The notes beneath the pieces are model-generated. The model was not told the DNA's origin and searched no databases. It was given only the letters and a program-made list of their open reading frames with translations. DNA of 64,000 nucleotides from Epilithonimonas caeni DSM 17710 (lineage in GTDB: Bacteria > Bacteroidota > Bacteroidia > Flavobacteriales > Weeksellaceae), in contig NZ_AUFK01000019.1 of assembly GCF_000426465.1 (NCBI RefSeq), positions 1 to 64,000 on the forward strand, read 5' to 3'. Shown one piece after another: positions 132 through 53,372 of this stretch. The position numbers and the translations under genes are program-made. Position 1 is the first letter of the stretch, and every line of letters starts with the position of its first letter.

Positions 132-3100
132 TTATTTTATTATTTTCTTAGTTTTTACATCTCCTGAATTCTCAGCTTTCAAAATATAAACTCCGTTAGA
201 GAATGTAGAAACATCAATTCTTATCGTTGTTTCATTCGTACTCAATGTTTTCATTAATCTTCCAGCCGTATCATACAACTCTACTTTGCCTAACTTCTTA
301 GAAGAAGTGATCACATAGCTGTTCCCATCTTTGTAAACATTGAAGCTGGATTTAGAAATAGCATCTGTAGCCAGAACAGCATCCTCTTTGTAAACAATCT
401 CGAAACGTGTTTCATCTGTACCCTTCACTCCTTGGAAGATATAATCTCCTTGTGACAAATTCACTACTTTGTTAAGAAGTTTGTCTTTCAAATATATATT
501 TTGAGAACCATCGAAGACACCTTCCCTATTTTTGATGGAAATCTTGTACTCTCCATCTTTAGAATAAACATTTCCTAGAGTCACTTTATCCTCTGCATTG
601 AACTCTGCCTTACCTTGAATAGCCAGTTTTCTGCTTCCTAATGTAGAGTAGAACGCATCAGAACCGATCACAAACAATTCTCCATCATAGTCGATCTCAA
701 ATCCATTTGTTGCCTCCGGAACATAAGCCACCAATATTGTGTTACTAATATTAGCTGGCGAAGTAAAAGTCAACCAGAAACGATTCTTGTCTGCTTTTTT
801 GCTGTTATAGAAAACAGCATTCGAATCATAACCTAACCTCATATCATTATTGAATTCTAAGGATTGGTCTTTACCTGCAACTTTTGATTTCACTATGAAA
901 CCTTGTCCAAGTTTTATGATTCCGTTCGGCACCTCAAAACCATTCCCTTGAGTAGGATCCGGATCTACAGCCGGTGTACCACCACTCAAATTATATATCG
1001 CATAATTATTTCCACTATAACCATTACCCGCCTGTTGAGTCACGGTAATATCATTATTGGTCCAGAAGTATGCTGTACCATAAATTTTAGAAGAGTTAGC
1101 AGCATACAACGCTTCAAAATCTATACTTGACGGATAAGGATTCCCAACAAGGTTATAACCTTTCTCGCATCCAGCTTCTACAGTACAAGAATTTTTAAGC
1201 TGCTGGGAGAATAGTTGCCCATTGTTAAGTTTACCCCCAAACAAAAATTCATTGGTAGCAGGATTCTCATTTCCAAATTTGTTCATACCCCGGATAGCAT
1301 AACCACGTCCTGTTACAAAAGTAGAAGCGCTATTGAGCTCAATCTCGTTAGTGATTTTCGTTACAAAATAATCATTCGCCTCATTATAGACATAAAATCT
1401 GTTCCAAGGTGTACCAGTACCCGATTCACCACCTGCGTTATTGTATCCATCAGAGAAGTTATATAGGTTCTGTCCAGAAACTGGCGAACTCCAAAAAGTG
1501 TAACCTACCGTCGGCAATGTGGAGTTTCTCTTGGCAATCACAGAATAGTTAGTTGGGTTTGTATCTATACCATCGGCAGTCTGAATCAGGTTACCATCAT
1601 TTTCTATAGTGATTTTATCATCCGCAGGAAGTACAATGCTTCCATGAACTATAATATCCTGCTGTGGCTGAATAGTGAGTGAACCCGTACTGGTAATGGT
1701 CAGATTATTAGTTTCAAAATTAGTGCTACCTGTGTAAGCTCCGACAATCTCCGCATCAAGTGTTTCGTCTGGACCGACATTGGCATTGCTCCAACTGGCA
1801 CCATCCCAAACTATGGCATTTGTGGTTTTAACAGCTATCTCATTCGAATCTTCTGTCTCATTACCATTGTTAACTGCACGTACTATATAATAATATTGAG
1901 TATCTCGATCCAAATCATTAAAGTTTCGAGAGTAAGTCGCAGGCTGAGGGTCCTGAGCAGGTATCGTAAATAACGAACCGGATATTGGTGATTTGACTTG
2001 TTGCCTTCCTGTTAAAACCATATTAGACAACCTTGCACCTACACCAGAAGTACCATTAGGTGTAGTTCCAGTTGCAGATAAGGTTCTCATTCTGATCTTA
2101 ACCTGCGAATTACCAGCATAACTTGACAAATCAATCGCAGGATCCATGATACTGGTCGTAGAGGTACCTTGTCTTGTTATAGGAGAAGACCACGTAGCAC
2201 CATCATCAGTAGAAAAATCAAACGTTACAGCATTACCAGCACCGGCTCCACCAAAAGTACCGAGCGTCATATTTAATTCAGCGGTAGCATAATTTGATAA
2301 ATCGATAGTAGGTGTAATTAAAACGGAAGTATTCATTATCATTTTCAGATAGGTTCCCGGTTGCCCTACATTTGTAGCTGACCATTCTGATGGTACAGAG
2401 GCACCAGCGTTATCGAACAATTCGGTATCTGTTGCAGCTGCGGTTTTCGTATAAACATCCAACTTGTAGCTATCTGCATTCGCAACCGCGTTCCAGTTAG
2501 CATTAAATCCTGTCCCCAAAATATTAGTTGCCGCTGTGGCAGTAGGAATAGTTGCCGTATTGAAATTGACTATAAGGTTGATACTTGCATCGTATGCATT
2601 ATAGTTTGCAGTTGGATCCGCATGTGCAGTGATTCCAGTGGTTCCAACACCCGTTATAGTAACTGTGTTCCCTGAGATGGTTGCAACATCTGCATCGGGC
2701 GTATTGGTAACTGCGTACGTCACAGGTTGAGTACCCGTAGTGGTAACAGCGGTTGGTAGGTCGAACGGCGCATCGGTAGAAAGCTTAACGATATCACTTC
2801 CGAATCCAGTGAGTGCCTGATCAGCTTTGGCTATAGTAAATGCAAACGCTGTAGAGCTAGCCGTATTGTAGTTGGAACTTTCAGCTACTGTAGCTATAGC
2901 AGAATACGAACCAGCGTTGGTTGGCCTGGTTGCAGATGGACCGTACGTATCGCCTCCGTCTTCTGTACCAGAATAGGAATAAGTCGCGGTCCCAGCAGCA
3001 GAAGGTGTCACTGTAGAAGTTGCCGGCCCCTGAGCTAGACCGTTATATGTATAAGCATCGCTTCCTGTGACCACTACAGCAGGCGTCGCCTTTGTAATAT

Positions 3101-25388: not shown

Positions 25389-26186
25389 ATATCCATTTTT
25401 CAAATTAAATGGGTTCTTGGCGGCATACATTATATTAAGTTTAATTTTTTCGCAAAACTCAAACGTGTCTTCGAGGAGAACTATTCTATGTTGGAAAAAA
25501 ATGACCTCAGCTGGTACAGACAACTGATAATAGGTCTTTTCATAATCATAGTGGTTGACTCTCTTTGTACGGTCTATGAAATGTTCTTTCCAGAAATCCC
25601 ATGGAATATCGGGACGATCATTGCCTTTTTGTTTGTTGGATTCTAATTATATCTGGGTTACAAAGGGATGTTCCAGTCCAGAATCCTTATGCCTGATTTT
25701 CTATTACAAAAAATCGAAAATGACAATGCCTTCAATAATGATCAACATAATAATGAGATTGGTCAACCACTTGAAAATCCGGAAAAAAATTCATCGATCA
25801 AACAATTGGATATTTTTTCAAAACAAGAGATAGATTCCATCAAAGAAAAGCTGAACAGAGTTCTGGAAGTTGATAAAATATTTCTAAATGATGAACTGAA
25901 TCTCACTGATCTATCCGATAGTATTGGTATTTCCAACAAAAAGTTATCCGAACTTTTGAATCAACACCTCAATACCAATTTCTATAATTTGATCAATGAT
26001 TACAGAATCGCAGAGGTCATCAAAAAATTTGAAGAAGGAGACACATCCAAATTCACGATAATGTCAATTGCGAACGACTGCGGTTTCCAATCCAAAGCCA
26101 GTTTTTACAGAATCTTCAAACAAAGAACGGGTGTATCTCCCTCCGAGTTTATTAAAAATAAAAAAATAAAAAAGGAAGCTGTTTAA
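25374..26186 (+). pseudogene. Decayed membrane-anchored AraC-type regulator
   Basis: A continuous frame interrupted by one in-frame TAA at 25644-25646. Before the stop it encodes a linker (KLKRVFEENYSMLEKNDLSW) and a membrane helix (LIIGLFIIIVVDSLCTVYE) with the start of another. After it, in the same frame, it resumes LYLGYKGMFQSRILMPDFLL and ends in an AraC-type DNA-binding domain (LTDLSDSIGISNKKLSELLN, FTIMSIANDCGFQSKASFYR). Related sensors carry several more N-terminal membrane helices, which are missing here. The only ATG upstream sits in the murA terminator, so the 5' end looks lost too. A 172-residue HTH fragment from 25668 could still be made. Confidence 0.7.
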
Positions 26187-26200
26187 GAAGCTTCCTTTTT
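26169..26200. terminator. Bidirectional terminator between the AraC remnant and the NIL gene
   Basis: A 12-bp perfect stem (26169-26180 with 26189-26200) with A-run and T-run flanks. The two convergent stop codons lie within its loop. Confidence 0.8.
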
Positions 26201-26488
26201 TAGAACATCTATTCTGCTGTTTAGCAATCTGTATTCATTCAGATAGTTTTCTATCTTATTGATTTGGTCTTGTGTGATATTCAGGAGAAGTTTTACGTTT
26301 CCGAAGTTACTTCCATTCAGGTATTCGATATTGGCATTTACGATTTTGTAGCTCACATTATAATGATTGTAAATCGTATAAAGTAATATATCGAATCTGA
26401 TCTTTCCATTCAGTTCTATCTCAAGGATTATTTCTCTCGTTGTTTTCGGAAGAAAATTGTTGCCGGTAGTTTCTTGTTTGTAGATCAT
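26183..26488 (-). CDS. Stand-alone NIL-domain protein
   Basis: A 101-residue soluble protein whose length and pattern fit a single NIL domain, the ferredoxin-like fold found at the C-terminus of the methionine ABC transporter ATPase MetN. Visible strand pattern: ILEIELNGKIRFDILLYTIY, VSYKIVNANIEYLNGSNFGN, VKLLLNITQDQINKIENYLN. Such orphan domains may bind methionine or act as regulatory subunits. It lies 24 bases after the DUF4395 gene on the same strand, so they form an operon. The upstream leader with clustered Met codons fits a methionine link. The family call is from pattern only. Confidence 0.65.
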   Translation of the reverse strand: MIYKQETTGNNFLPKTTREIILEIELNGKIRFDILLYTIYNHYNVSYKIVNANIEYLNGSNFGNVKLLLNITQDQINKIENYLNEYRLLNSRIDVLKKEAS

Positions 26489-26512: not shown

Positions 26513-26944
26513 TTATTTAATTTTATTTTGAATTGGAACGACGATAAATTGATAAATGTAACAGCCCACACAGATCTTGAAAAAGCTTTCCAGACTCGCC
26601 AGAATAATTAATAAAGATCCTGTAATATAAGCCTCATCATAATGTCCATTTATCATTAATAAAAAAATCAGCAATGTGAAAACTGCTCCCAATGCTGCAG
26701 CAAATCTTTTAGGTGCTGCAAAAATGGATTTCTTTTTCAGTTTCAATATTTTCGCAGTCGATTTTGAAAAAAGAGCTAAAGGAGAAAATGATCGTCCTAA
26801 AGCTCTAATAATAAAATCAAAAACTAAGAGCAAAAGTAAAAACGGCCACTTAAAAAATAGAGATACAGTAGTCATAACAATCACTGAAAATGCTGTCAAC
26901 CTTACGATATTCTCGTCTGTATAGTATTTATTAATCTGACTCAT
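26513..26944 (-). CDS. DUF4395 membrane protein
   Basis: A 143-residue integral membrane protein with about four hydrophobic segments (near residues 17-45, 80-98, 105-120 and the C-terminal region). Family-like features are the RALGRSFSPLALFSK linker and the C-terminal CVGCYIYQF cysteine pair. DUF4395 proteins are often found near sulfur or thiol metabolism genes; their activity is unknown to me. It is the first gene behind a leader with a probable methionine attenuator, 17 bases after the terminator T-run. Loss of termination would be needed to reach it. Confidence 0.75.
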   Translation of the reverse strand: MSQINKYYTDENIVRLTAFSVIVMTTVSLFFKWPFLLLLLVFDFIIRALGRSFSPLALFSKSTAKILKLKKKSIFAAPKRFAAALGAVFTLLIFLLMINGHYDEAYITGSLLIILASLESFFKICVGCYIYQFIVVPIQNKIK

Positions 26945-26960: not shown

Positions 26961-26991
26961 ATAAAAAAGCCTCATCGGTAAGATGAAGCTT
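26961..26991 (-). terminator. Intrinsic terminator in the leader of the DUF4395/NIL operon
   Basis: A 10-bp stem with one G-U pair (26982-26991 with 26967-26976, five-base loop) is followed by a run of T on the minus strand. It lies between the promoter and the first gene, so it must be read through; this is the layout of an attenuator. Confidence 0.75.
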
Positions 26992-27018
26992 TATATCATA
27001 GCTTTCTCACCGCACTCT

Positions 27019-27066
27019 TCAGTTCGTATTACACATCATTGCCATCTGTGAGAAAGTCTGTTTCAT
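27019..27066 (-). CDS. Putative Met-rich leader peptide
   Basis: The 16-codon frame reads MKQTFSQMAMMCNTN and a TGA stop. Four of 15 residues are Met and one is Cys, with Met-Ala-Met-Met-Cys at positions 8-12. It begins about 12 bases after the predicted transcription start, with A-rich AAGAAATA just upstream of the ATG. Position and composition match leader peptides of amino-acid biosynthetic attenuators. Translation is not shown by the sequence alone. Confidence 0.45.
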   Translation of the reverse strand: MKQTFSQMAMMCNTN

Positions 27067-27084
27067 TATTTCTTATTTACATTG

Positions 27085-27115
27085 CAAATATAGAAATTAT
27101 TTAATTCCCACCAAA
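27085..27115 (-). promoter_or_regulatory. Near-perfect promoter of the DUF4395/NIL leader
   Basis: On the minus strand TTTG (27115-27112) and TATATTTG (27092-27085) are separated by exactly 19 bases, the consensus Bacteroidota primary promoter. Transcription would begin near 27079. Confidence 0.75.
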
Positions 27116-27203
27116 TAAGTATGAATTAAATTTACACAAATTCATTATTTGTTAACATTGGAGTATTCTGATTCTTTTTCTAGAGCATGAGAATTAAAGT
27201 AAA

Positions 27204-53097: not shown

Positions 53098-53276
53098 AAT
53101 AAGTAGATAAAAGAAAATAGAATAAAGATAAAAGACTTACAATCAATTTGTTTTGTTATTGAAAGCAAATACATTAATCCATTTTTACCATTATTCGTTT
53201 TGTTACACATACTTTGCTACCAAAGATACAAAATGTTAATTTGTATGTCTAAGCTTTATAATTATGCTGAATCCCA

Positions 53277-53372
53277 TAGCCCCGATTGTAGTGGAAATCC
53301 TTTTGCTTTTTTTTCACATATGAAAAAGCAAAAGATTGCAACGGAAAGCGGGATCAAGCTCTAAAAATATTT
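53277..53372. repeat. Approximately 100-base imperfect hairpin repeat
   Basis: Outer ends AGCCCCGATTG and GGAAAGCGGGATCAAGCTCT flank a perfect 12-bp inner stem (53300-53311 with 53323-53334). The GC-rich ends contrast with the AT-rich gap. Similar 'AGCCCCGAT...AAAGCGGGA' elements recur between genes in Chryseobacterium and Flavobacterium, from memory. Only one copy was seen here. It lies in the 327-base gap of the polysaccharide locus; no gene is present in that gap. Confidence 0.5.

Follow-up and report, generated by a model that had tools for sequence, protein, structure and literature searches.

A putative Met-Cys leader-peptide attenuator upstream of the NIL operon in Epilithonimonas

The ilvB1 leader of Mycobacterium is presented, in the excerpted source, as a ribosome-mediated amino-acid attenuator with branched-chain codons, and cysteine-responsive short frames that control mycobacterial sulfur genes are described in the same excerpts as acting by translation attenuation (PMC13236596). 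The uORFC-8-2 motif precedes the cysteinyl-tRNA synthetase gene and carries two tandem Cys codons (PMC8632094, in excerpt). For Bacteroidota, the excerpted transcriptome of Flavobacterium psychrophilum mentions 'strong clues' for leader-peptide control before amino-acid biosynthesis operons (PMC9723704), and a Bacteroides map, also in excerpt, refers to short frames reminiscent of such control (PMC7366714). Leader-peptide control in this phylum is little described in the searchable literature, and among the best-ranked titles of the open-licence literature we recognised no Met-Cys leader, no NIL-operon leader, and no such control in Epilithonimonas. A further case in Bacteroidota is the Bacteroid-trp leader, a leader-peptide control element with Trp codons in its frame.

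We analysed a leader on the minus strand of a 64,000-nucleotide stretch of Epilithonimonas caeni DSM 17710 (contig NZ_AUFK01000019.1, positions 1 to 64,000; hereafter the window), located before an operon of a DUF4395 gene and a NIL-domain gene. From sequence comparison, this leader is probably a ribosome-mediated transcription attenuator that reads the supply of charged Met-/Cys-tRNA. As far as the excerpts describe the ilvB1 leader, the two have in common regulatory codons in a short frame and an intrinsic terminator before the operon, and an antiterminator that would exclude the terminator is predicted here as well; they differ in the Met-Cys codons, the phylum, and the NIL operon as the target. 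By description only, and within the excerpted account, the uORFC-8-2 motif likewise has a short frame with Cys codons, lying within a stem, and a terminator after it; the NIL leader differs in having a single Met-Cys pair and in preceding another gene. The mycobacterial cysteine-responsive frames, too, are short, lie upstream, and carry Cys codons according to the excerpts, whereas transcription attenuation is proposed for the NIL leader.

The preliminary description had placed a promoter, a 15-codon frame, a 9-bp stem, and a terminator in this region, and re-reading of the sequence located each of them at the positions claimed. The predicted promoter, TTTG-N19-TATATTTG (27085-27115, minus strand, as are all features of the locus), comprises TTTG at 27115-27112, a 19-base spacer, and TATATTTG at 27092-27085; it is retained in the relatives inspected. 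The leader frame, MKQTFSQMAMMCNTN (27019-27066), runs for 15 codons from ATG to TGA and includes the codons ATG TGT (27031-27036), which are the final six bases of ATGATGTGT (27039-27031). Stem P1 has its 5' arm within the frame, as had been stated (27056-27048 within 27066-27019): arm 1, CTTTCTCAC (27048-27056), forms the 9-bp stem with arm 2, GTGAGAAAG (27002-27010). An inner hairpin, P2 (27011-27026), read from the sequence and alignment A4, lies over the stop codon and forms five of six pairs in the window leader. The intrinsic terminator, an 11-bp hairpin with a U-tract (26963-26992), is followed by the DUF4395 gene (26513-26944, ATG at 26944; 143 aa; Pfam PF14340, 98.2 bits) and the NIL gene (26183-26488; 101 aa). 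The fold of the window leader was better than that of its shuffled versions (z -2.66; 1 of 200 shuffles equally good). The full architecture was present in 40/40 related loci examined, which represent 22 distinct leaders, the remaining 18 being copies. None of the 22 frames contains a Trp codon, unlike the Bacteroid-trp leader, and the NIL leader also differs from it in matching no Rfam family.

Frame conservation was evaluated over the distinct leaders, 22 in all. By parsimony, codon positions 1/2/3 had undergone 19/16/48 changes (binomial p 4e-6), a count that maps changes on the tree of the NIL gene alone and treats them as independent; this tree groups leader L114 with L003-L005 despite its differing sequence, so that some changes are possibly counted twice. 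For codons 7, 8, and 10-13, which lie outside the stem arms save for the first base of codon 7, the changes were distributed 4/1/20 (p 2e-6). Silent change in a conserved frame, which the preliminary description had proposed to look for, is thus what the alignment contains. The stop codon is TAA in 10 leaders, TGA in 8, and TAG in 4, and changes go only to other stops; an extra Ala in four leaders amounts to exactly one codon. By these comparisons, the leader frame evolves as coding sequence. The placement of L114 relative to the NIL tree suggests that leaders may have been exchanged. Among the frames, that of L114 (leader at 1894-2021), MYQNCSNMMMCNTN, diverges most and includes a second Cys.

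The same data bear on the reading of the leader as a riboswitch or protein-binding RNA in which the frame is incidental. The leader is structured and its internal loop contains conserved bases, as would fit such an RNA. The changes in the loop codons nevertheless follow codon phase, the sole insertion is a whole codon, and the stops interchange. Moreover, at gathering scores no Rfam family matched the leader in a search of the 64-kb window, and leaders L001, L007, L233, and L241 yielded no Rfam match up to E 0.1. The only match in the window was a Flavo-1 RNA elsewhere (53274-53359, plus strand, 80.4 bits). A known riboswitch is ruled out by the absence of an Rfam match together with the codon-phased changes, and we consider this class of explanation as a whole very unlikely.

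Besides the start codon, only Met11 and Cys12 are invariant (22/22 distinct leaders); the Cys12 codon is TGT in 20 leaders and TGC in 2, a silent change. Codon 10 encodes Met in 9/22 and Ile in 10, and codon 8 encodes Met in 6/22. The Met-Ala-Met-Met-Cys series reported earlier is therefore present in the window frame but was rejected as a conserved unit, only Met-Cys being kept across the 22 leaders. Overall, the frame holds one invariant Met and one invariant Cys, with no run of either. Variation is free at codons 2-4 and frequent at codon 14, which speaks against a functional protein of 14-15 residues with the RNA stems acting solely as terminator. Coding constraint on the frame is what such a protein would entail, but the pairing of P1 extends into the frame and covaries, and we assign this explanation next to no probability.

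The best-conserved stretch of the frame is its last six codons (Met-Cys-Asn-x-Lys/Asn-stop). This pattern could reflect nascent-peptide arrest, in which a small molecule, and not a lack of charged tRNA, causes the end of the peptide to hold the ribosome. Part of the conservation is explained by P2, which includes codons 14-16, and a ribosome held at the stop codon leaves arm 1 free, which should favour termination. For these reasons, peptide arrest appears unlikely.

For P1, P2, and the terminator together, 92.8% of cells were paired in the 22 leaders and 9/24 pairs had changed on both sides; alignment A4, from which these values derive, was made to covariance model R1 and is thus fitted to the tested structure, which favours the pairing score. 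None of 500 shuffles was as high on any of five measures, and slid controls were 40-53% paired. The terminator helix was paired in 100% of cells, and P2, at 83.3%, was the weakest of the three helices. An intrinsic terminator lies between the frame and the first gene in all 22 distinct leaders. Covariation in both stems and a conserved terminator, the further signs named in the preliminary description, are accordingly found in this set. The possibility that the terminator belongs to the upstream C92 gene was ruled out, as the two are separated by a promoter and a frame that are both conserved.

The antiterminator is the least supported part of the leader. Its predicted 5' arm, GGTGAGAAAGCT (27000-27011), overlaps P1 arm 2, and its predicted 3' arm, AGCTTCATCTTACC (26977-26990), comprises the 5' arm and loop of the terminator. 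In the window, 12 pairs are predicted between GGTGAGAAAGCT and AGCTT-CA-TCTTACC (-11.4 kcal/mol). The short AAGCT/AGCTT pairing proposed earlier is really the inner part of this helix, so its length had been underestimated, but its designation as the weak point holds, since covariation is not significant (for example, 94/500 shuffles reach the covariation score in the 22-leader set). An antiterminator is predicted in 22/22 leaders, at -4.0 to -11.4 kcal/mol, and own partners performed better than swapped ones (p 0.014; 19 distinct pairs). Against shuffled arm 2 sequences, the mean z was -0.97, with p < 0.05 in 1/22 leaders and values above the shuffle mean in 3/22 (L019, L020, L060). When arm 1 was masked, the full-length minimum fold contained the antiterminator in 5/22 leaders (L001, L002, L009, L091, L114) and the terminator in 17; in this analysis the terminator arm of L001 and L002 was misplaced, so that the terminator, leader-before-terminator, and duplex values do not hold for these two, whereas the energies given above use the correct arm. 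Kinetics must therefore help antitermination.

The spacing of these elements suggests how the attenuator would operate. Located by its motif, arm 1 ends 8-11 bases short of the Met codon and 23-26 bases short of the stop codon, and this spacing is constant. Based on usual ribosome footprint sizes, we infer that a ribosome at Met-Cys would cover arm 1 and that one at the stop codon would not. When Met and Cys are plentiful, the ribosome would reach the stop codon, P1 would re-form, and the terminator would halt transcription. When either is short, the ribosome would wait at the Met-Cys codons and cover arm 1; arm 2 would then pair with the 5' arm and loop of the terminator, allowing read-through into DUF4395 and NIL.

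The distribution of the leader was investigated using R1, which was built from 13 leaders. In Epilithonimonas, R1 scored at least 57 bits in 22/23 genomes, at one place in each, and the next-best match within the genus was 27.4 bits. Across the family's 297 remaining genomes, scores were at most 37.4 bits, with no strong match, and an order-wide search of 395 genomes yielded nine matches at E 0.001 or better, six in Epilithonimonas (at least 61.9 bits) and three elsewhere (34-37 bits, with L231 at 34.1 bits); searches of more than 40 genomes, namely the family and order searches with R1 and that with R2 below, applied more stringent filters, at which weak matches are lost. Eight weak R1 matches outside Epilithonimonas (L094-L101) had terminators by eye and no frame. 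Conservation across Chryseobacterium and relatives, which the preliminary description had proposed to examine, was not borne out: strong matches are confined to Epilithonimonas, and the large sister genus g36, which judging by its size is probably Chryseobacterium, has NIL genes without a strong R1 leader match.

The leader tracks the NIL gene. A DUF4395 search of 59 relatives yielded 22 loci, of which 20, all within Epilithonimonas, carry the leader; it was not seen at the two loci outside the genus. In two Epilithonimonas genomes, G002 (L060) and G017 (L091), DUF4395 was not found and the leader lies directly before the NIL gene, which identifies the NIL gene as the constant partner. The only Epilithonimonas genome without a leader match, G014, had neither a DUF4395 nor a NIL match. 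The DUF4395/NIL operon named earlier as the target is thus correct for the window, where both genes follow the leader, and too narrow for the genus. DUF4395 proteins fall into two groups, 55-100% and approximately 45% identical to that of the window; this split separates L012-L020 from L001-L011 and is not shared by the NIL gene, so that an exchange of the first gene is possible.

At E 0.001, NIL matches occurred in 204/320 genomes of the family, 173 of them in g36; some of the weaker matches may be MetN. Eight g36 NIL loci (L142-L149) were inspected; they share a C92-like gene upstream, together with a promoter palindrome, and a leader was seen in none. A palindrome without a leader is compatible with control at initiation only, the terminator and frame in Epilithonimonas being leftovers of little effect. 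Constraint on both coding and pairing maintains this leader in 22/23 genomes, which would not hold for leftovers, and we regard initiation-only control as extremely unlikely. Initiation control probably adds to the attenuation proposed above, since a palindrome of a type also present before metNIQ lies at the promoter.

In the window, this imperfect palindrome, AATTCATACTTATTTGGTGGGAATT (27103-27127), overlaps the TTTG promoter element and is likely an operator. A degenerate form of AATTCATACTTATTTGGTGGGAATT was searched with up to two mismatches, using its backwards form as the control. In the own genome, one strand had 5 matches and the other 6, at six places, as compared to 0 and 0 for the control. 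All 23 Epilithonimonas genomes had matches, the control giving 0 or 1 per strand among the matches listed. Besides the one at the NIL leader, own-genome palindromes (L232-L236) precede metNIQ, peroxiredoxin, TonB-dependent receptor, and cupin_8 genes, and one lies approximately 180 bases before metK, where a LysR-type gene ends; neither a Met-Cys frame nor a terminator was seen in the metK leader. Judged by their similarity, these sites likely form one regulon, although the TonB-dependent receptor and cupin_8 targets are not plainly linked to methionine uptake. In g36, palindromes of different sequence precede NIL, peroxiredoxin, and cupin_8 genes. One genome of this genus (G144; L163, 1400-1954) has a palindrome that follows an Rrf2-family gene and precedes one of the TauE family (sulfite exporter). 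Rrf2 proteins are no more than a candidate for the protein that binds the palindrome. An Rrf2-family gene occurs in 23/23 Epilithonimonas genomes; it was discarded as an obvious self-regulated owner of the palindrome because, by eye, none was present in the 150 bases upstream at the 23 loci.

The metN transcript of the own genome has a leader of its own (L233, C3:286000-291000; 2341-2541, minus strand), with the frame MTGKMFCCCDLTFRIYMKK and a terminator. The 17 regions fetched for comparison comprised 15 metN leaders and two peroxiredoxin promoters. A terminator was present in 15/15 of the metN leaders, and in 14 the aligned start opens a frame that encodes one or more Cys, L257 being the exception. 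Part of the metN leader is conserved base by base across length changes, which makes its coding case weaker than that of the NIL leader. A model of this second leader, R2, scored at least 99 bits in 18/23 Epilithonimonas genomes and at most 42.3 bits elsewhere in the family. Because the metN leader also has Cys codons, we consider cysteine at least as likely a signal as methionine, and it is possibly the signal shared by the NIL and metN leaders. The earlier proposal of methionine (or cysteine) supply as the signal is accordingly retained in part: Cys12 of the NIL leader is as invariant as Met11, and methionine alone is not established.

The second gene of the operon encodes a NIL domain, as previously noted (Pfam PF09383, 36.1 bits), and this is the only Pfam domain found in the 101-aa protein. 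In the own genome, NIL is the domain that ends MetN, with which the protein is 35% identical over 49 residues. It is not MetN itself: it scored 21.9 bits against TIGR02314 (MetN; cut-off 499.7), in the NIL part only. Sequence searches of the PDB with the NIL and DUF4395 proteins returned no matches, and an NCBIfam search of the DUF4395 protein returned none. A NIL/ferredoxin protein of homocysteine synthesis links the NIL domain to methionine metabolism in the excerpted account of PMC5764234; as described there, it differs from the present protein, in which Pfam recognises NIL alone.

Taken together, these observations allow a broader and more tentative proposal, which we consider possible but less likely than not: a two-layer sulfur regulon in Epilithonimonas. 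A common operator would serve metNIQ, the NIL operon, and others, and separate leader-peptide attenuators would act on NIL and metNIQ. One of these would read Met-Cys, so that the supply of the two sulfur amino acids would be gauged together by one ribosome, and the free-standing NIL protein might act as a partner that senses methionine and is produced only under shortage.

The principle of attenuation is known; the NIL target and the Met-Cys codon pair look new. If the proposed attenuation is correct, the Met-Cys leader would extend the leader-peptide control described in Bacteroidota to sulfur amino acids and would tie free-standing NIL proteins to sulfur supply. The two leaders behind similar palindromes would then constitute a compact system for separating codon identity, stem exclusivity, and promoter control.
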